Shown: positions 7,387 to 50,062 of the stretch, piece by piece
How the letters are laid out: each line of letters begins with the position of its first letter
How positions within the stretch are numbered: the first letter of the stretch is position 1
Source: Calothrix membranacea FACHB-236
Lineage (GTDB): Bacteria > Cyanobacteriota > Cyanobacteriia > Cyanobacteriales > Nostocaceae
Assembly: GCF_014696315.1 (NCBI RefSeq)
Contig: NZ_JACJPX010000047.1
Span: 1-64,000 of the forward strand
Direction of reading: 5' to 3'
DNA: 64,000 nucleotides
The notes under the pieces: generated by a model
The model's database searches: none
The model's input: the letters and a program-made list of their open reading frames with translations, nothing else
What the model was told of the DNA's origin: nothing
Made by a program: the position numbers and the translations under genes

Positions 7387-8178
7387 TTAATCAATCCTCA
7401 TCACAGGTAACTTGGTTCCACATCTTTTGCAAAACCCAGCATCTGCATCATGGTAAGCCAAACCGCATCCAGAACAATTTGCTTCTATTTGGTTCGCAGT
7501 TTTTACCAATCGCTTAATTAAATCACCAACTTGCCAAGGAATTAGGGCAATACCCGTCAAAATCATCAATACTGTTAACCAGCGACCTAACTCTGAAGCG
7601 GGTGTCACATCCCCAAAACCCACCGTTGTCATGGTGACAATCGAAAAATACAATGCATCTAAAAAAGTGGCAAACCCTTGGGGATTAACAGGATGTTCAA
7701 CTTGATAAATTAAGCCAGAGTAAACAAATATAATTGCAAATAAGGTAAATAATATTCGTGCAAATATTACACCATCTTCAGTACTCACACTACCAAAGAA
7801 AAATCTTTTATCTATAAACCTGATTAACCTTAAAATCCGAAACCATCGTAATAAACGAATAAAGCTTAAATCTACGGCTCCCAGAAAAAATGGCAAGATA
7901 GCAATTAAGTCGATAATGGAATATAAACTGAAAAAGTACTTAACCTTATTTTCTGCACTCCATAAACGGATTGCGTATTCAACTGCAAAAATTATAAATA
8001 TAGCAGTATCAATAATTTGTAATTGGAAACGGAGGGAATCAGGAATATTATAAGTTTCTGCTACGAAAATTCCTGAAGACAAAAGAACCAATCCGGCGAT
8101 AGTTAAGTTAATTACTTGTCCCAGTGGTGTTTCTATGTCTGTTAAATAGAATTCGGCTTTTTCTCTGCTAAGTAACAT
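7387..8178 (-). CDS. Voltage-gated potassium channel with C-terminal zinc ribbon
   Basis: A six-helix Kv-type channel subunit of 263 residues. The S4 segment shows arginines at every third position (R108, R111, R114, R117, R120). The pore loop carries the K+ selectivity filter TVGFGD at residues 185-190, followed by S6. After S6 a short linker leads to a four-cysteine knuckle (C235, C238, C250, C253), a zinc-ribbon-like tail. Known channels of this family form tetramers in the plasma membrane; the tail could bind metal or help assembly (inference). The gene stands alone, divergent from the deaminase gene. Confidence 0.9.
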   Translation of the reverse strand: MLLSREKAEFYLTDIETPLGQVINLTIAGLVLLSSGIFVAETYNIPDSLRFQLQIIDTAIFIIFAVEYAIRLWSAENKVKYFFSLYSIIDLIAILPFFLGAVDLSFIRLLRWFRILRLIRFIDKRFFFGSVSTEDGVIFARILFTLFAIIFVYSGLIYQVEHPVNPQGFATFLDALYFSIVTMTTVGFGDVTPASELGRWLTVLMILTGIALIPWQVGDLIKRLVKTANQIEANCSGCGLAYHDADAGFCKRCGTKLPVMRID

Positions 8179-43366: not shown

Positions 43367-43633
43367 ATGCGAGAAGTTTATGGATATCAAGAAGCTCTGT
43401 TGGAGAGAATATCGAAAATTGTTGAACATTTGATGCAAAAGGATAGTAGCTACCAAAATTATTTAGATAAAAATAAAGCTATTCAAATAATATTTAAATA
43501 CTATTCTGAAAAAGTTGCTATTGAGGAATTGAAAGCTATGTCTGATTTTAAATTAACGAGTTTTATTGAGGCAGATATGATGACTCTGTTATTGATTGAA
43601 GGAGAAGATGATATAAATAATCACTTTTCTTAG
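43367..43633 (+). CDS. Hypothetical protein, 88 aa
   Basis: A charged helical protein (MREVYGYQEALLERISKIVE) with no membrane segment. The upstream GTG at 43277 lies inside the tkt terminator, so the ATG at 43367 is preferred. Lower GC than its neighbours. Function not recognised. Confidence 0.5.
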   Translation: MREVYGYQEALLERISKIVEHLMQKDSSYQNYLDKNKAIQIIFKYYSEKVAIEELKAMSDFKLTSFIEADMMTLLLIEGEDDINNHFS

Positions 43634-43666
43634 AGTTTATTTATAAAGTAAACATAAAATTAATGT

Positions 43667-43765
43667 AGGGTGTGTTAGGCGCTGATTTCCAATATAATTT
43701 GTCACGAAATAACTATCCTAGCGCCTAACGCACCATCCACGCGACGGTGCGTTAGGCACACGCCC
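43667..43765. repeat. MITE-like double inverted repeat (family C)
   Basis: GGTGTGTTAGGCGCT and AGCGCCTAACGCACC flank a short core, and CCTAACGCACC then pairs again with GGTGCGTTAGG in a second hairpin. Confidence 0.6.
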
Positions 43766-44130: not shown

Positions 44131-44910
44131 TCAGACTAGATAAATAGTATTTGGGACGATCGCAAAGAAAGCGTACTCATACCAAGCAGTCCAAATGAAG
44201 CTGCGAAGCCAACGTTGACGCTTTTCGGGGCTGATTTCGTATGCAAAAGCCCCAGCCGATGCATCAATAGATGAGAGGTGAGAGTTGCAACCGCAGCCAT
44301 GTTGATAGGTAAAACCGTATTTAGCAGCGATGCTTTGCACTTTCATTTGGATAGCAAACACTTTACCAGCGTGTAATACCGCATCCCAAGCCCGTTTGTG
44401 TTCTATATCACGCTTGTCAAATCTTAAGGCGCGTTCTTCAAACACATGATCTCGATAAATTGGGGCTAGATGGACATGATAAAAGCTGGCGGGTAACTCA
44501 TAACCAAATTCTTCAAAAAGTTCGATGCCAATGCGCGCTACTTTTACCTCATCGGCGTACTCTATACCCTTGGACTCGACATCGCGGAGAATTTCTGCAA
44601 AGTTGGGATAGCTACTAATCAGGAAATCTTGACCGTAGAATTCTAGAGTTTCTCGCGCTAACTGCCCAAATAACTGAGAAAAAGCGGGTTTGAAGTGAGT
44701 TAGATCTGGGCGATCGCTAAATAAGTCTACATCACCATGTTCCAATTTGTACTGAAACAACTGCGCCATCTCAACATAGCATTGTGGATCGCACATTCCC
44801 ACATCAGCCACCCCTCTGGCGATATCTTGCCAAACAGCAGGTAGTTGAGAAACAGTCACCGCATTTTCACCAGCAATAACTGTTACGCTAGGAGCTTCCA
44901 GAAGCTGCAT
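44131..44910 (-). CDS. Unrecognised Cys/His-rich protein, 259 aa
   Basis: A soluble protein, probably helical, without signal peptide. Candidate metal-binding clusters: MCDPQCYVEM near residue 40, FYHVHLAPIYRDH near 145-157, and QHGCGCNSH near 205-213. No family recognised. It is divergent from the MbnP-like gene, so a link to the copper/respiration cassette is possible but only inferred from position. The ATG at 44910 has AAAGGAGA upstream, a good ribosome site. Confidence 0.75.
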   Translation of the reverse strand: MQLLEAPSVTVIAGENAVTVSQLPAVWQDIARGVADVGMCDPQCYVEMAQLFQYKLEHGDVDLFSDRPDLTHFKPAFSQLFGQLARETLEFYGQDFLISSYPNFAEILRDVESKGIEYADEVKVARIGIELFEEFGYELPASFYHVHLAPIYRDHVFEERALRFDKRDIEHKRAWDAVLHAGKVFAIQMKVQSIAAKYGFTYQHGCGCNSHLSSIDASAGAFAYEISPEKRQRWLRSFIWTAWYEYAFFAIVPNTIYLV

Positions 44911-44994
44911 ATCTATTCTCCTTTCAGATATTAAGCTGCAATTTACACTAAGCGATCGCTTTTTTAGTGTTCTCGACAGAATTAAAAAATCTTT

Positions 44995-45005
44995 GACAGA
45001 CTGTC
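44995..45005. promoter_or_regulatory. Possible operator dyad GACAG-A-CTGTC
   Basis: A short perfect dyad in the intergenic region of the divergent pair 44131-44910 and the mbnP-like gene. Position suggests a regulator site; no protein can be named. Confidence 0.25.
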
Positions 45006-45186
45006 TTTTTATACGAGATGCAACTTTACTTCATCGTCCAAGTATTAAACTGTGCGCTTATATACCATCACGAGAATTTGCGGTGCAGGGCATAAGCTAT
45101 TTGGTAATATGACAACCCGTCTTTTGACAGTAACTCCACTGTTATCGAGAATTGTCACACACCTCGATTTAAGCACTGGTAAAGAA

Positions 45187-46116
45187 ATGCTGTTGTTTGT
45201 CAAATCAGCCGCGATTGGCGTAGCCAAAAGCCTTCGGTGTATCGCAATGATAGCAATTCCCCTGACTGCTGTTTTGGGGAATGATGGTGTAGCTTTAACC
45301 GCCAATGCTCAAACCCAAGAAGTAAGTATTAAATTTAATGCCAAAGTCGGCAAACATTCTTTTGAGTGTGGTAAAAGCTACGTTGGTTTAGGCAAACCAG
45401 CTACAAAAGTTACTTTCTCTGACTTTAGGTTTTATGTATCTGATGTTGCATTGATTGATAGTAACGGCAAAACTGTACCCGTAACTTTAACCCAAGATAA
45501 TAAATGGCAATATCAAAATGTAGCCTTGCTAGACTTTGAAAATAAATCTGGTGCTTGTGCAAATGGCACAGTAGAGACAAACAATCAAGTTATTGGCACA
45601 GTACCCAAAGGCAATTATCAACGACTGCAATTTACTCTGGGTGTACCCTTCAATCTCAATCATGCTGATGTTGTGACAGCACCATCACCATTAAATTTGA
45701 CTTCGCTTTGGTGGAATTGGCTATCGGGGTATAAATTTCTGCGCCTGGATTTGGCGAGTCAAAGTCTAGGCGCAAGCGCAAAGGATGATCAACACAGTCA
45801 TCACGGACAAGGTTTCCCAATACACTTGGGTAGTACTGGTTGTCAAGCGGCTGAAGGTAGTCAAAAACCCGCAAGTTGTAGCAATCCGAATAGAATTAAG
45901 TTAGTTTTTACGAAGTTTGATCCGACAAAGAATGTAGTGATTGCCGATGTTGCAGCATTGGTAGCAAATACGAATTTAGCAGCTAATCAGCCCAATAGCC
46001 CACCTGGTTGTATGTCATCCCCTGATGATGGTGATTGTGCTGGGATTATGGCTAATATTGGTATCCCATTTGCTAATAAACCTACTTTTGGGCAAGCATT
46101 TTTTAGAGTGGAATAA
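45187..46116 (+). CDS. MbnP-like copper-binding protein (metallo-mystery pair four-Cys protein)
   Basis: An exported protein of about 309 residues. After a leader ending near TANAQ, the domain opens with IKFNAKVGKHSFECGKSY and contains FSDFRFYVSDV, the Trp-rich block LWWNWLSGYKFLRLDL, HHGQGFPIHLGSTGC and paired cysteines, the pattern of the MbnP family. In studied MbnP proteins a Trp is converted to kynurenine by the dihaem partner MbnH, creating a copper site. The start is uncertain: ATG 45187 gives a shorter leader, the longest frame starts at GTG 45052. The leader DNA resembles an interspersed repeat. Probable first gene of an operon with cydAB and the MbnH-like gene. Confidence 0.85.
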   Translation: MLLFVKSAAIGVAKSLRCIAMIAIPLTAVLGNDGVALTANAQTQEVSIKFNAKVGKHSFECGKSYVGLGKPATKVTFSDFRFYVSDVALIDSNGKTVPVTLTQDNKWQYQNVALLDFENKSGACANGTVETNNQVIGTVPKGNYQRLQFTLGVPFNLNHADVVTAPSPLNLTSLWWNWLSGYKFLRLDLASQSLGASAKDDQHSHHGQGFPIHLGSTGCQAAEGSQKPASCSNPNRIKLVFTKFDPTKNVVIADVAALVANTNLAANQPNSPPGCMSSPDDGDCAGIMANIGIPFANKPTFGQAFFRVE

Positions 46117-46258
46117 AGCGATTTTAGATTTTGGATTAACTACAAAAACAGTTCGCTTTTGAATATTTGAGCCAAAAGTCAATTCTTGCGATTCTAAAAT
46201 TGCGTCAACGAGTAATCATTTATCTTAAATATTGTGGCTAGCTAATGGAGAAAATTTA

Positions 46259-47704
46259 GTGGAATTTTTATCCGATTCCGTAGTGCTATCACGGATGCAG
46301 TTTGCGCTAACAGCCATCTTTCATATGCTTTGGCCTGTCCTGACTACAGGGATGGGCATTTATTTGGTGATTGTAGAGGGATTATGGCTCAAAACTCGTA
46401 ATCCCGATTACTATCTCCATGCCCGTTTTTGGTCTAAGTTCTATGTCCTCAATTTTGGCATTGGTGTCGCCACCGGTATTCCAATGGAATTTCAGTTTGG
46501 CACCAACTGGGCCCCCTTCTCAGAAGCAGTAGGCAATTTTTTTGGTAGTGTAATTGGGTTTGAAGCTTCTTGGGCCTTTATGCTAGAAGCTGCTTTTTTG
46601 GGGATTATGTTATTTGGTTGGGAAAGGGTAAATCCTGCCATTCACTATCTTTCCACCATCTTGGTTGCTTTTGGTGCTAACTTGTCAACTTTGTGGATTT
46701 TGACAGCCAATTCTTGGATGCAAACTCCCGCAGGTGGAGAAATTATCAATGGCAAGTTTATCGTTCACGATTATTTTCAGGCAATTTTAAATCCTTTTAT
46801 GGTCAACAGTGTGCTGCATATGTTTTTTGCCACACTAGAGACATCTTTGTTTGTGATTGGTGGTATCAGCGCTTGGTACATTGTCAAGCAGCGCCATACA
46901 GCTTTCTTTAGTAAATCTTTGAAGATTGCTTTAGCAGCTGCGATCGCAGTTGCGCCATTACAAATATATATCGGGCATTTAAGCGGCGAGCAAGTTTATC
47001 ACTATCAACCCACAAAACTAGCAGCAATGGAAGCCCAGTGGGAAAGCACTCCCGCCGGACAACCTGCTGACTGGAGTTTACTTGCTATACCCAATACCAA
47101 AGCTGAGAAAAATGATTGGGAAATCACCATTCCTAACGCCTTGGGATACATTTTGGAATTTAAACAGAATCTTTCCCAACCACTACGCGGTTTAAAAGAA
47201 TGGAAACCAGAGGATCGTCCGCGCATGGTTGGTTTAATTTATTACGCCTTTCGTGTGATGATTGCCATTGGTTTTTTCTTTGCTGGCTTAATGCTACTGA
47301 GTACCCTGCAATGGTTGCGAGGTAAACTTTCAGCCGAAAATATCACGCAGCAGCGTTGGTTGATGTGGGCTTGGGTATTTGCTGCGCCTCTAGGATACAT
47401 TGCTGTAGAATCTGGTTGGATTGTGCGTTGTGTGGGCAGACAGCCTTGGATACTTTACGGACAAATTCGCACTGTTGATGCGGCTTCTCGGTTACCAGCT
47501 AGTAATGTCTTAGTTTCACTTACTAGCTTTGCTTTAGTTTATACCCTGTTATTTATTGCAGCTATGTACTTTGGTAGCCGCATTATTCGCAAAGGGCCAA
47601 ATTTAGAACTACCAATTCCTGGGGTAGAAATTACCAAACCCGCAATAGATACTACTCCCGGGGAGTTTGTACCTGATGAGCGTCCTGTAGAAGCACAACA
47701 GTAA
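46259..47704 (+). CDS. cydA: Cytochrome bd-type quinol oxidase subunit I
   Basis: A membrane oxidase subunit of 481 residues. It has the CydA N-terminus with a haem ligand His (IFHMLWP), a short Q-loop, ESGWIVRCVGRQPW and multiple helices. It oxidises plastoquinol/ubiquinol and reduces O2 to water. The start is the GTG at 46259, preceded by GGAG at 8-nt spacing, which gives the usual first residues (V/M)EFLSDSVVLSRMQFAL; the TTG at 46232 is not needed. It lies 142 nt after the mbnP-like gene and 46 nt before cydB. Confidence 0.95.
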   Translation: MEFLSDSVVLSRMQFALTAIFHMLWPVLTTGMGIYLVIVEGLWLKTRNPDYYLHARFWSKFYVLNFGIGVATGIPMEFQFGTNWAPFSEAVGNFFGSVIGFEASWAFMLEAAFLGIMLFGWERVNPAIHYLSTILVAFGANLSTLWILTANSWMQTPAGGEIINGKFIVHDYFQAILNPFMVNSVLHMFFATLETSLFVIGGISAWYIVKQRHTAFFSKSLKIALAAAIAVAPLQIYIGHLSGEQVYHYQPTKLAAMEAQWESTPAGQPADWSLLAIPNTKAEKNDWEITIPNALGYILEFKQNLSQPLRGLKEWKPEDRPRMVGLIYYAFRVMIAIGFFFAGLMLLSTLQWLRGKLSAENITQQRWLMWAWVFAAPLGYIAVESGWIVRCVGRQPWILYGQIRTVDAASRLPASNVLVSLTSFALVYTLLFIAAMYFGSRIIRKGPNLELPIPGVEITKPAIDTTPGEFVPDERPVEAQQ

Positions 47705-47750
47705 ATAATTCAAAATTCAAAATGAAATTTGGAGCAGCAGAGGAGATGAT

Positions 47751-48764
47751 ATGGAGACGCTCGAGTATTTTCTGCCACAAGTCTGGTTTGTCATTCTAGC
47801 TCTGTTTCTCTTCCTCTATGTCATGCTAGATGGATTTGATTTAGGGGTAGGTATTTTGTCTCTTACCTCCTCCGATGAAGAACGTCGGGGAATTTTGATG
47901 ACTAGCTTAAGCAACATTTGGGATGCTAACGAAACTTGGCTAGTCCTCATGGGAGGAGGTTTATTTGGGGCTTTTCCTTTAGCTTATGGCACAATTTTAA
48001 ATGCCTTGTATATCCCGATTTTCGTGATGGTGTTTGGGTTTATTTTTCGGGGTGTCGCCTTTGAGTTTCGGGAACTAGCCAGGCGCAAATTATTTTGGAA
48101 TTTCGCTTTTGGTGCAGGAAGTTTTGCGGCTGCACTCGGTCAAGGTTTCGCTTTGGGTGCAGTACTCAAAGGTATTAAAGTGGATGAAACTGGACACTTT
48201 ATCGGTAGCACCTGGGACTGGTTTAGTTTACCTTCAGTGTTGGTGGCATTGACCTTAATTCAAGGATACGTGTTGATTGGTTCTACTTATCTCGTGTGGA
48301 AAACCACAGGAGAATTGCAAGCAACGCATTATAAAACAGCCAAAATTGCAGCTTGGACAACTCTCATAGGTGCAGTGCTAATTACAATTACCACACCGAT
48401 AATTTATGAAAGTGCCAGAACCCGGTTATTTCAGCAACCGCTAGTTTATATCTTTGCGATTATTCCCATACTGGGAGTGCTGTTGATTTGGCAACTTTTA
48501 CAAAGTCTCAATCGCCAGGAAGAACGAGCGCCTTTTGTCTGGACTATTTTGCTGTTTATCTTGTCCTTTATTGGCTTAGGCTTGATTGTCTTTCCTTATA
48601 TCATCCCACCACAGATTACGATTTATGAGGCAGCTGCCGATCCTAGTTCGTTGGTAATCATGATTATTTTTATCGGCTTTCTCATCCCTGTGATGCTGTT
48701 TTATAACCTTTACCAGTACATTGTGTTTCGAGGTAAGGTAACTGGCGGTAACTACAGTGAATAA
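47751..48764 (+). CDS. cydB: Cytochrome bd-type quinol oxidase subunit II
   Basis: A partner subunit of CydA, 337 residues with about nine helices. The family blocks LFLYVMLDGFDLGVGIL and NIWDANETWLVLMGGGLFGAFP are present. Followed after 9 nt by the MbnH-like gene, so the two are surely co-transcribed. Confidence 0.95.
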   Translation: METLEYFLPQVWFVILALFLFLYVMLDGFDLGVGILSLTSSDEERRGILMTSLSNIWDANETWLVLMGGGLFGAFPLAYGTILNALYIPIFVMVFGFIFRGVAFEFRELARRKLFWNFAFGAGSFAAALGQGFALGAVLKGIKVDETGHFIGSTWDWFSLPSVLVALTLIQGYVLIGSTYLVWKTTGELQATHYKTAKIAAWTTLIGAVLITITTPIIYESARTRLFQQPLVYIFAIIPILGVLLIWQLLQSLNRQEERAPFVWTILLFILSFIGLGLIVFPYIIPPQITIYEAAADPSSLVIMIIFIGFLIPVMLFYNLYQYIVFRGKVTGGNYSE

Positions 48765-48773
48765 TGTATTGCC

Positions 48774-49952
48774 ATGAAATTATCTCGCTGGTTTACCCTT
48801 GCTAGCATTTTTTTATTATCCATTTGCCTGTCAGTTGGACTGGGTAAAGCTTTTTCTGCTTCCTCAACTTCCGATTATGACTGGAATCTGCCAACTTGGA
48901 TGCCAAAGCCAATTGTGCCAGCAGATAACCCGATGAGTTCTGCAAAGGTGAAATTGGGAAGACACCTATTCTATGAGCAGCGCTTATCAATCACAGGTGA
49001 ATTTTCTTGTGCATCTTGTCATATCCAGTCACTAGCCTTTACAGATAGTAAGCCAATAGCTGTGGGAGCCACTGGCGAAAAACACCCGCGCAATTCTATG
49101 AGTTTGGCTAATATTGCCTACAATCCGGTGTTGACTTGGGCTAATCCTTTGATCACAAAGTTAGAAAATCAGGCTCTTGTGCCCATGTTTGGCGAACATC
49201 CGGTAGAAATGGGTATGGTAGGAAGGGAAACACAAATATTGGCTATGCTAGAAAGCGATCGCCAATATCGGCAAATGTTTACTGCAGCTTTTGGCAATGG
49301 AAAGGATGTAATTAGCCTCAGCAATCTCACTAAAGCCTTAGCTAGTTTTGAACGCACTTTAATTTCTGTTAACTCTCCCTACGATCGCTATCGCTTTGGC
49401 GGCGATGCTCAGGCTATTTCTGACGCTGCTAAACGAGGCGAGAAATTATTTCATAGTGAAAGCTTGGAATGTTTTCATTGTCATGGTGGCATTAACTTTA
49501 CCGATTCAGTGATTCACGAACGCCTAGCTTTTGTGGAAATCGCCTTTCATAACACTGGACTTTACAATATTGATGGTAAAGGAGCTTACCCACCTGATAA
49601 TACAGGCGTTTATGCAATTACCGCTAAACCATCTGATATGGGTAGGTTTAAAGCTCCGACTCTCAGAAATATTGCGTTAACTGCTCCTTATATGCATGAT
49701 GGCAGTATCGCTAGCCTTGAGGAAGTTATCGACCATTACCAAGTAGGTGGTAGAACAATTACTACAGGAAAGTTTGCTGGAGATGGCAGTAAAAATCCTC
49801 TCAAGAGTGAGTTTATTTCCGGTTTTAAATTATCTGAGAGCGAAAAACAAGATTTACTAGCATTCTTGCACAGTCTGACTGATGAAACATTTACTCACAA
49901 CCCCAAATTGAGTAATCCGCATGGGGAAAATTACAGCAAATCTGCCTTTTGA
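48774..49952 (+). CDS. MbnH-like dihaem enzyme (MauG/cytochrome c peroxidase family)
   Basis: A periplasmic/lumenal dihaem protein of 392 residues. A signal peptide (SIFLLSICLSVGLGKAFS) is followed by two c-type haem sites, C79-A-S-C82-H83 and C233-F-H-C236-H237. The C-terminal block is TLRNIALTAPYMHDGS. Length and motifs fit the MbnH family, which pairs with MbnP and oxidises a tryptophan in it to kynurenine. Presence of an MbnP-like gene three genes upstream supports this over plain cytochrome c peroxidase. Ends the operon; a hairpin terminator follows. Confidence 0.88.
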   Translation: MKLSRWFTLASIFLLSICLSVGLGKAFSASSTSDYDWNLPTWMPKPIVPADNPMSSAKVKLGRHLFYEQRLSITGEFSCASCHIQSLAFTDSKPIAVGATGEKHPRNSMSLANIAYNPVLTWANPLITKLENQALVPMFGEHPVEMGMVGRETQILAMLESDRQYRQMFTAAFGNGKDVISLSNLTKALASFERTLISVNSPYDRYRFGGDAQAISDAAKRGEKLFHSESLECFHCHGGINFTDSVIHERLAFVEIAFHNTGLYNIDGKGAYPPDNTGVYAITAKPSDMGRFKAPTLRNIALTAPYMHDGSIASLEEVIDHYQVGGRTITTGKFAGDGSKNPLKSEFISGFKLSESEKQDLLAFLHSLTDETFTHNPKLSNPHGENYSKSAF

Positions 49953-50040
49953 TAGATAACAAAATATACCAAACGGATGACCCAACTCTTATCTGAGTCA
50001 GTCGATAATAACGATCGCTGGTATATTACTTTTTAGCCCG

Positions 50041-50062
50041 CCCTGAGGTGACTCAGGGTTTT
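50041..50062 (+). terminator. Terminator of the mbnP-cydAB-mbnH operon
   Basis: CCCTGAG-gtga-CTCAGGG followed by TTTTAT. Confidence 0.7.

Follow-up and report, generated by a model that had tools for sequence, protein, structure and literature searches.

A candidate PetR-controlled copper-limitation operon combining mbnPH with cytochrome bd oxidase genes in Calothrix membranacea

Our analysis concerns four co-directional genes, in the order mbnP-cydA-cydB-mbnH, on the plus strand of a 64,000-nucleotide (nt) stretch of the genome of Calothrix membranacea FACHB-236. This whole stretch is called the window, its genome is G000, and all coordinates are positions in it. The two genes of a cytochrome bd quinol oxidase lie here between those of an MbnP-like copper protein and an MbnH-like dihaem enzyme, an arrangement that we interpret as a probable copper-limitation operon. 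A preliminary description of this DNA had given the positions of the four genes, intergenic gaps of 142, 46 and 9 nt and a terminator after the last gene; positions and gaps were confirmed exactly and a terminator-like stem is indeed present. The 142-nt gap follows from a GTG start of cydA, a longer reading frame being possible from a TTG at 46232, and terminator-like sites in the region number 10, compared with 5.1 in shuffles. The operon comprises:

45187..46116, plus strand: mbnP, ATG start; predicted exported copper-binding protein with a WxW motif, above the cut-offs of TIGR04052 and PF20243
46259..47704, plus strand: cydA, GTG start; cytochrome bd quinol oxidase subunit I (PF01654) with a Cys-type GWIVRCVGRQPW motif
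47751..48764, plus strand: cydB, cytochrome bd quinol oxidase subunit II (PF02322, TIGR00203)
48774..49952, plus strand: mbnH, MauG-like dihaem enzyme (TIGR04039), predicted Trp-to-kynurenine maturase of MbnP
50040..50059, plus strand: terminator-like stem-loop just 3' of mbnH, closing the operon

The family assignments made for the outer genes in the preliminary description hold. The window MbnP scores 314.6 bits against TIGR04052 (cut-off 140), and MbnH scores 539.4 bits against TIGR04039 (cut-off 362.85); their solved relatives are 7l6g (E 4e-41) and 6e1c (E 4e-115), respectively. MbnH has two CxxCH haem-binding sites, CASCH and CFHCH, and MbnP has a WNW block, W176-N177-W178 when counted from the ATG at 45187. 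In published work on MbnP the first Trp of the WxW motif is reportedly converted to kynurenine, with one His and one Met as copper ligands. The window protein and the 7l6g chain have both Trps, His159, His213 and Met276 (the Met of GCMS) in common, and each of these five is conserved in 36 or more of the 37 rows of an alignment (36 cyanobacterial MbnP open reading frames (ORFs) and the 7l6g chain), rows that were selected by their STGC motif. Without this selection, WxW and GCM are found in all 40 MbnP-like ORFs of at least 250 amino acids (aa), and STGC in 36 of them. Two CxxCH sites occur in 43/43 MbnH ORFs of at least 300 aa that have at least one, a recount less circular than an earlier motif alignment whose rows had been selected for two.

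The window CydA and CydB match PF01654 and PF02322 with 520 and 303 bits, respectively, and single copies of cydA and mbnP were found in G000. The Glu of the CydA motif GWxxxExGRQPW is a haem ligand in E. coli; in the window protein (GWIVRCVGRQPW, encoded at 47414-47449) Cys takes its place, as it does in 69 of the 75 distinct CydA contexts collected. The remaining six have Glu; they are of the cydA2 type (L181, L185, L306) or come from three distant genomes (L171-L173). Judged by its domain and its cyanobacterial relatives, the window CydA is still a member of the cytochrome bd family.

The regulatory context of the operon is given by a conserved inverted repeat, found by aligning four intergenic regions between mbnP and a BlaI-type gene, which defines the composite operator TTTGACA-N3-TGTC-W-TTTGAC (the box). 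Immediately before mbnP the window carries:

45108..45128, plus strand: operator copy 2, TATGACAACCCGTCTTTTGAC, two mismatches; the copy at the mbnP promoter, its third half-site overlapping the -35
45124..45152, plus strand: predicted mbnP promoter, -35 TTGACA at 45124-45129, 17-nt spacer, -10 GAGAAT at 45147-45152

The region contains 7 promoter-like sites, of which this one scores highest; shuffles contain more (13.2). In the four genomes that share the nested gene order (see below) the whole region is 98% identical; both hexamers are invariant there and operator copy 2 has two variable positions. The layout of box followed by -10 recurs at other box-carrying genes: the third half-site there can be read as a -35, and a -10-like hexamer (at least 4/6) follows 16-19 nt on at 14/16 petJ, 39/41 TonB receptor, 31/45 MbnP and 9/16 DsbD_2 genes, as against 181/1866 random positions. 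In these counts overlapping loci repeat some genomes, and the two petJ misses reflect a start set too far upstream.

Of 43 cyanobacterial mbnP genes (42 distinct, as L029 and L209 are the same contig), 31 have the box at three mismatches or fewer in the 500 nt before them, compared with 0.07 in shuffles and with 26/442 other ORFs of the same loci. Of the 12 upstream regions without it, six come from genomes of group g130 and five from loci of the distant family f32; the twelfth is that of G127, where an exact copy lies farther off, about 0.7 kb before mbnP. A pattern search of 28 genomes at up to two mismatches returned 206 sites, versus 41 for the reversed pattern. We inspected 40 stretches around selected sites; for 9 of the 51 sites listed no neighbour was labelled, and 2 of the 8 sites in the window genome (L289, L290) fall inside reading frames, probably by chance. 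Besides mbnP, boxed genes include a TonB receptor gene next to petJ, a DsbD_2/ferric-reductase-like gene from which an M28 peptidase gene diverges, PepSY_TM, homologues of the protein encoded at 44131 (see below), a COX1 and a second BlaI gene on a Trichormus plasmid. In L304 (G039) the box lies 38 nt before a gene for haem-copper oxidase subunit I. Because the reference set used for labelling was itself drawn from these loci, independent checks are limited to petJ and petE.

The operator lies 74-77 nt before 11 petJ (cytochrome c6) genes, called by sequence and Pfam, in all 10 genomes broadly sampled, the window's included; no petJ box was seen in the one or two stretches inspected in each of G304, G039, G203 and G471. 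The core palindrome TGACA-N3-TGTCA, at one mismatch or none, precedes 17 of 18 scored petE (plastocyanin) genes (19 strong loci, 18 scorable; 0.16 in shuffles), and 14 of the 17 palindromes lie 71-79 nt before the start and lack the third half-site. G000 itself has a petJ box with 2 mismatches, a petE core with 1 mismatch and two 2-mismatch boxes before mbnP, so that the operon shares its operator with both genes. According to the available portions of three reports, PetR represses petE and activates petJ under copper shortage, and the protease PetP destroys PetR when copper is present (PMC7896320, PMC12292863, PMC13421787). Since the operator matches both known PetR targets, petJ and petE, PetR is its likely binder.

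The genomic setting of mbnP is consistent with this assignment. In Microcoleus, Tychonema, Lyngbya and an Oscillatoriales genome (G039), mbnP is divergent from a gene for a BlaI-type repressor accompanied by an M48/M56-type protease, a pair of the PetR/PetP kind, and in G129 such a pair lies about 4 kb from mbnP. The BlaI gene near mbnP is the sole PF03965 gene in G203, G039 (divergent from mbnP in both) and G129; exactly one PF03965 gene was found in 37 of the 46 genomes tested, including G000. G203, G039 and G129 gave no strong petE match and yet keep the PetR/PetP-type pair, so PetR may serve mbnPH and cydAB there in place of the petE switch. PetR self-regulation was looked for at 14 chromosomal Nostocaceae PetR loci, and no box was seen at three mismatches or fewer. 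We also tried the rule that genomes without a box are those without PetR and discarded it, as it fits only the distant f32 (4/5 without PF03965, the fifth with two weak matches); in the g130 genomes PetR is present but mbnP has no box. In a separate case, three boxes accompany a second BlaI/protease pair on the Trichormus plasmid of G471 (L306, C2:192000-211900), where a boxed cydA2, CobW and a FeoB-like gene are also found; mbnPH is on this plasmid too, about 30 kb away, and the whole is possibly a movable copper-limitation set.

The box also occurs at cydAB outside the nested operon. Among 80 cydA upstream regions (some rows repeat a genome) it is present at up to three mismatches in 10 and at up to four in 15. 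Several boxed cydA genes belong to genomes without an MbnP match (G042, G024, G005, G172); in G153 and G374 the boxed cydA is on another contig than mbnPH, and cydA2 is boxed in G471, G337 and G437. In G203, G039 and G129 the box precedes a DsbD_2/ferric-reductase gene upstream of cydAB on the same strand, although in G203 the two are separated by a small gene and by a gap of 0.4 kb, so that a single operon is not certain there.

The search for this gene order that the preliminary description had proposed shows that it is not unique to the window genome. Across the genus, cydA and mbnH are jointly present or absent: four of eight genomes (G000, G304, G305, G306) have the nested order, with cydA split by a frameshift in G305, and the other four have neither cydA nor MbnH above cut-off, one of them giving a weak MbnH-type match at 3e-5. 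One of the latter, G309, has an empty site with flanks about 94-97% identical to the window: the left match ends at window position 45070 and the right one starts at 49804, inside mbnH, the two being 8 nt apart in G309, where the mbnH remnant is decayed. These boundaries indicate that a single stretch was lost which held the operator copy at the promoter, mbnP and the larger part of mbnH, and from the genus-mates we infer that cydAB was part of it; G309 has no cydA match. A search for repeats at the cassette ends that might explain insertion gave nothing convincing.

Among 292 genomes drawn evenly from the phylum, 12 had MbnP above cut-off, 12 had MbnH above cut-off and 77 had a cydA match; five of the 12 MbnP genomes belong to f32 and have no cydA match (73-95% complete), and the other seven all have cydA. 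Within 217 genomes of the Nostocaceae (f1), MbnH was above cut-off in 34 (stop-interrupted in G325) and cydA was found in 150. Their co-occurrence is modest (cydA in 29/34 genomes with MbnH vs 121/183 without; Fisher p 0.027, kinship ignored). Physical linkage is stronger than chance: 8 of the 34 MbnH genes lie within 10 kb of cydAB, where about 0.1 of 34 would be expected (for 7.5-Mb genomes; relatives are not independent). Four of these are nested, G464 is convergent, G337 is co-directional behind a cydA2 paralogue, and G437 and G127 are at 5-6 kb. Relics of mbnP or mbnH adjoin cydAB in four more genomes (G022, G048, G103, G245), and mbnPH lies near cydAB in non-nested layouts in other Nostocaceae, Microcoleus, Tychonema and Lyngbya. 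Eight loci that we examined by name comprise 2 nested ones, 5 in which mbnP-mbnH converges on cydAB and 1 without cydAB in the stretch examined. In a tree of 43 MbnH rows the nested ones form one clade with full support, and the convergent G464 falls among the Nostocaceae, apart from the Microcoleus group, a placement that does not force separate origins.

Two further observations concern these neighbourhoods. In Nostoc parmelioides (L025) a decayed remnant of the CydB C-terminus, at 7564-7701, separates mbnH from an intact cydB and is on the strand opposite to the latter, hinting at an inversion; and several Nostocaceae (L033, L035, L126, L043, L187) have genes for the cobalt-type transporter components CbiM, CbiN and CbiQ in the vicinity of mbnPH or of its relics.

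On these data we put the probability that mbnP-cydA-cydB-mbnH is one PetR-controlled copper-limitation operon at roughly 0.73. When copper is short, the copper-activated protease PetP would be idle and PetR would persist, bind the palindrome just upstream of the mbnP -35 and activate a single transcript. This transcript would yield a copper-free quinol oxidase replacing haem-copper oxidases, as cytochrome c6 replaces plastocyanin, and an exported MbnP in which MbnH would oxidise W176 to kynurenine, creating a copper site whose role would be to catch scarce copper. A by-eye reading of the 142-nt mbnP-cydA gap revealed no box, so that cydAB probably depends on the mbnP promoter. The preliminary description had proposed copper-linked control and had called the link odd because bd oxidase is copper-free. 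The copper link is supported, now through the operator of petJ and petE, and that operator makes copper limitation the most likely signal, rather than the copper excess or oxidant stress also proposed there. As for the oddity, an oxidase that needs no copper is what fits a copper-starved cell, and the absence of copper becomes the proposed explanation.

Several points weigh against this interpretation. Both boxes in the window are among the weaker ones, with 2 mismatches each, and cydA could have its own promoter within the 142-nt gap. Seven mbnP upstream regions in PF03965-bearing genomes (six g130 and G127) have no box within 500 nt, and in 3 of the 28 genomes searched there is no excess over the reversed control (G129 4/4, G317 3/3, G318 2/2). 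Only 8 of the 34 Nostocaceae MbnH genes are linked to cydAB, the other 26 having no cydAB in the stretch examined, some of them near contig ends. At cydA, 65 of the 80 upstream regions are at more than four mismatches, so that any copper control of bd oxidase through the box would be scattered and not universal, and a -10-like hexamer follows the box at only 3 of 7 boxed cydA upstream regions. The regulon of the Synechocystis PetRP switch is given, in the accessible part of the literature, as four proteins (plastocyanin, cytochrome c6 and two of unknown function), and the texts of papers on the copper transcriptome and the copper/iron proteome do not mention cyd.

The nested order could also be a chance juxtaposition, cydAB having landed between PetR-controlled mbnPH genes in one ancestor with no functional meaning, which we consider unlikely. 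The restriction of the nested order to one clade, the many mbnPH pairs elsewhere not seen linked to cydAB and the frameshift-split nested cydA of G305 would all agree with it, but mbnPH also adjoins cydAB in convergent form, in co-directional form with a different cydA paralogue, and as relics; the linkage within 10 kb, in cases that are not independent, is far above expectation; and some cydAB on other contigs than mbnPH bear the same box.

A microaerobic or heterocyst programme, in which the operon would be timed with oxygen and copper would be secondary, is very improbable in our view, as the box is common to petJ and petE, and loci of Microcoleus, Tychonema and Lyngbya, genera that are not known to form heterocysts, also have mbnPH beside cydAB together with the box. 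In its favour, the Anabaena bd oxidase is described, in the available text of one study, as up-regulated under microaerobic conditions and essential for diazotrophic growth (PMC6616624).

A cassette against copper excess or oxidative stress, an option raised in the preliminary description, would have MbnP soak up toxic copper and the bd oxidase cover for copper-damaged oxidases. Copper proteins can detoxify. Moreover, bd-type oxidases are said, in the part of one paper available to us, to tolerate inhibitors of haem-copper oxidases (PMC10968556). This explanation nevertheless seems hardly tenable, since the operator is that of petJ, reported in the accessible portion of a Synechocystis study as the most repressed gene under high copper (PMC4182526), and the TonB receptors and ferric-reductase-like protein found behind the box appear to point to import.

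Direct biochemical coupling, with MbnP as a redox or copper partner of the oxidase at the membrane (the preliminary description had it serve the oxidase as a buffer or oxidant sensor) or with MbnH fed by the respiratory chain, would suit the proximity of mbnPH and cydAB in several layouts and the 9-nt cydB-mbnH gap, but is equally hard to sustain given that 26/34 Nostocaceae mbnH genes have no cydAB in the stretch examined, that 5/34 Nostocaceae genomes with MbnH above cut-off have no cydA match at all, and that the five f32 genomes have mbnPH and no cydA match.

The copper-limitation operon proposed here combines features of several known systems. The MbnPH pair of Methylosinus trichosporium OB3b (TIGR04052/TIGR04039) is alike in passing the cut-offs, in its WxW, His, Met and CxxCH features and in having mbnP before mbnH on the same strand. 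The preliminary description had noted that such pairs usually have no oxidase between them, and the two genes are indeed adjacent in most loci examined (from overlap to about 100 nt; 1.5 kb in G469); in the window genus, by contrast, cydA and cydB intervene, both mbn genes remaining co-directional, and the window-type operator is shared with cyanobacterial petJ. With the Synechocystis PetRP switch our genomes share the TGACA-N3-TGTCA palindrome at petJ, petE and mbnP and the presence of PetR/PetP-type pairs, and they differ from it, beyond its small reported regulon, in having a composite box, the third half-site of which falls at the -35. As far as the accessible text of PMC3621798 goes, CorA/CorB and MopE of methanotrophs are similar in comprising a surface or secreted copper protein (with a kynurenine site in MopE) and a dihaem partner, down-regulated by copper, whereas their sequences are not markedly similar to MbnP.

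A copper-free oxidase made under copper starvation also has a parallel outside cyanobacteria. A 2008 report by Frangipani is said to describe a cyanide-insensitive bd oxidase induced by copper starvation in Pseudomonas aeruginosa; the likeness lies in a copper-free bd-type oxidase under copper starvation, and we know of no link between it and MbnPH. Outside cyanobacteria, mbnP-mbnH of Paracoccus precedes genes for a copper-uptake-associated protein, PCu(A)C and two SCO proteins, and MbnPH-like genes of Ideonella lie in a DUF2946-headed operon. The available part of PMC9426467 likewise describes MbnPH-like genes in operons with copper-homeostasis genes, headed by DUF2946 genes. The other plasmid neighbourhoods examined, from Pseudoalteromonas and Diaphorobacter, contained no obvious copper genes. 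In passing, 8 of 15 plasmid MbnH matches (H1, H2, H4, H6, H8-H11) are misnamed 'methanobactin export MATE transporter MbnM'.

On the other side of the mbnP promoter region lie a divergent gene and the second box of the window:

44131..44910, minus strand: gene for a 259-aa protein of no known family, divergent from mbnP; no Pfam or NCBIfam match at E 0.001
44992..45012, plus strand: operator copy 1, TTTGACAGACTGTCTTTTTAT, two mismatches to the composite; by position it goes with the 44131 gene

Operator copy 1 is invariant in all four nested genomes, over the same 98% identical region. Of nine upstream regions of 44131-gene homologues, seven have their best site at -95/-96 relative to the start, in the opposite orientation; of the remaining two, the window genome has copy 1 also at -96, tied with copy 2, and the box of G153 is farther away. 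As copy 1 stands at the position typical of these homologues, each box in the window probably serves its own gene, copy 1 the 44131 gene and copy 2 mbnP, and the 44131 gene is a probable further member of the regulon. Its homologues adjoin mbnPH in G127 and an mbnH relic in G048, and boxed homologues are found elsewhere too. The protein is strongly conserved among six relatives and has an HGCGCNSH motif; an AlphaFold model of it from six sequences was poor (mean pLDDT 43). Nearby, at about 43617-43754, lies a repeat of about 125 nt that is present in tens of copies in several genomes of the genus.

Taken beyond this operon, the data incline us, by a narrow balance, towards a broader proposal for filamentous cyanobacteria, in which PetR would run a whole copper-sparing programme that goes beyond the plastocyanin/cytochrome c6 swap and includes bd oxidase, kynurenine-type copper capture, TonB receptors and a reductase. 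The composite operator, with its third half-site as the -35, would mark activated genes and the bare palindrome the repressed petE, and the nested operon would join the respiratory and scavenging arms of the programme on a single transcript. As far as our literature searches go, what is new is the joining of known parts, the operator whose third half-site falls at the -35, and the copper logic proposed here; among the matches listed, the portions available contained no report of MbnPH or cydAB as PetR targets, and little was found in them on the control of cyanobacterial bd oxidase.

MbnPH pairs, according to the portions of the literature available, occur far beyond methanobactin producers and their role there is unclear. 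The operator shared with petJ and petE gives both MbnPH and the bd oxidase a testable context, that of copper limitation. If our interpretation is true, the PetR regulon would include respiration and copper capture in addition to photosynthetic carriers, and the layout of the box would suggest a way for a single regulator to act as activator at some genes and as repressor at another.

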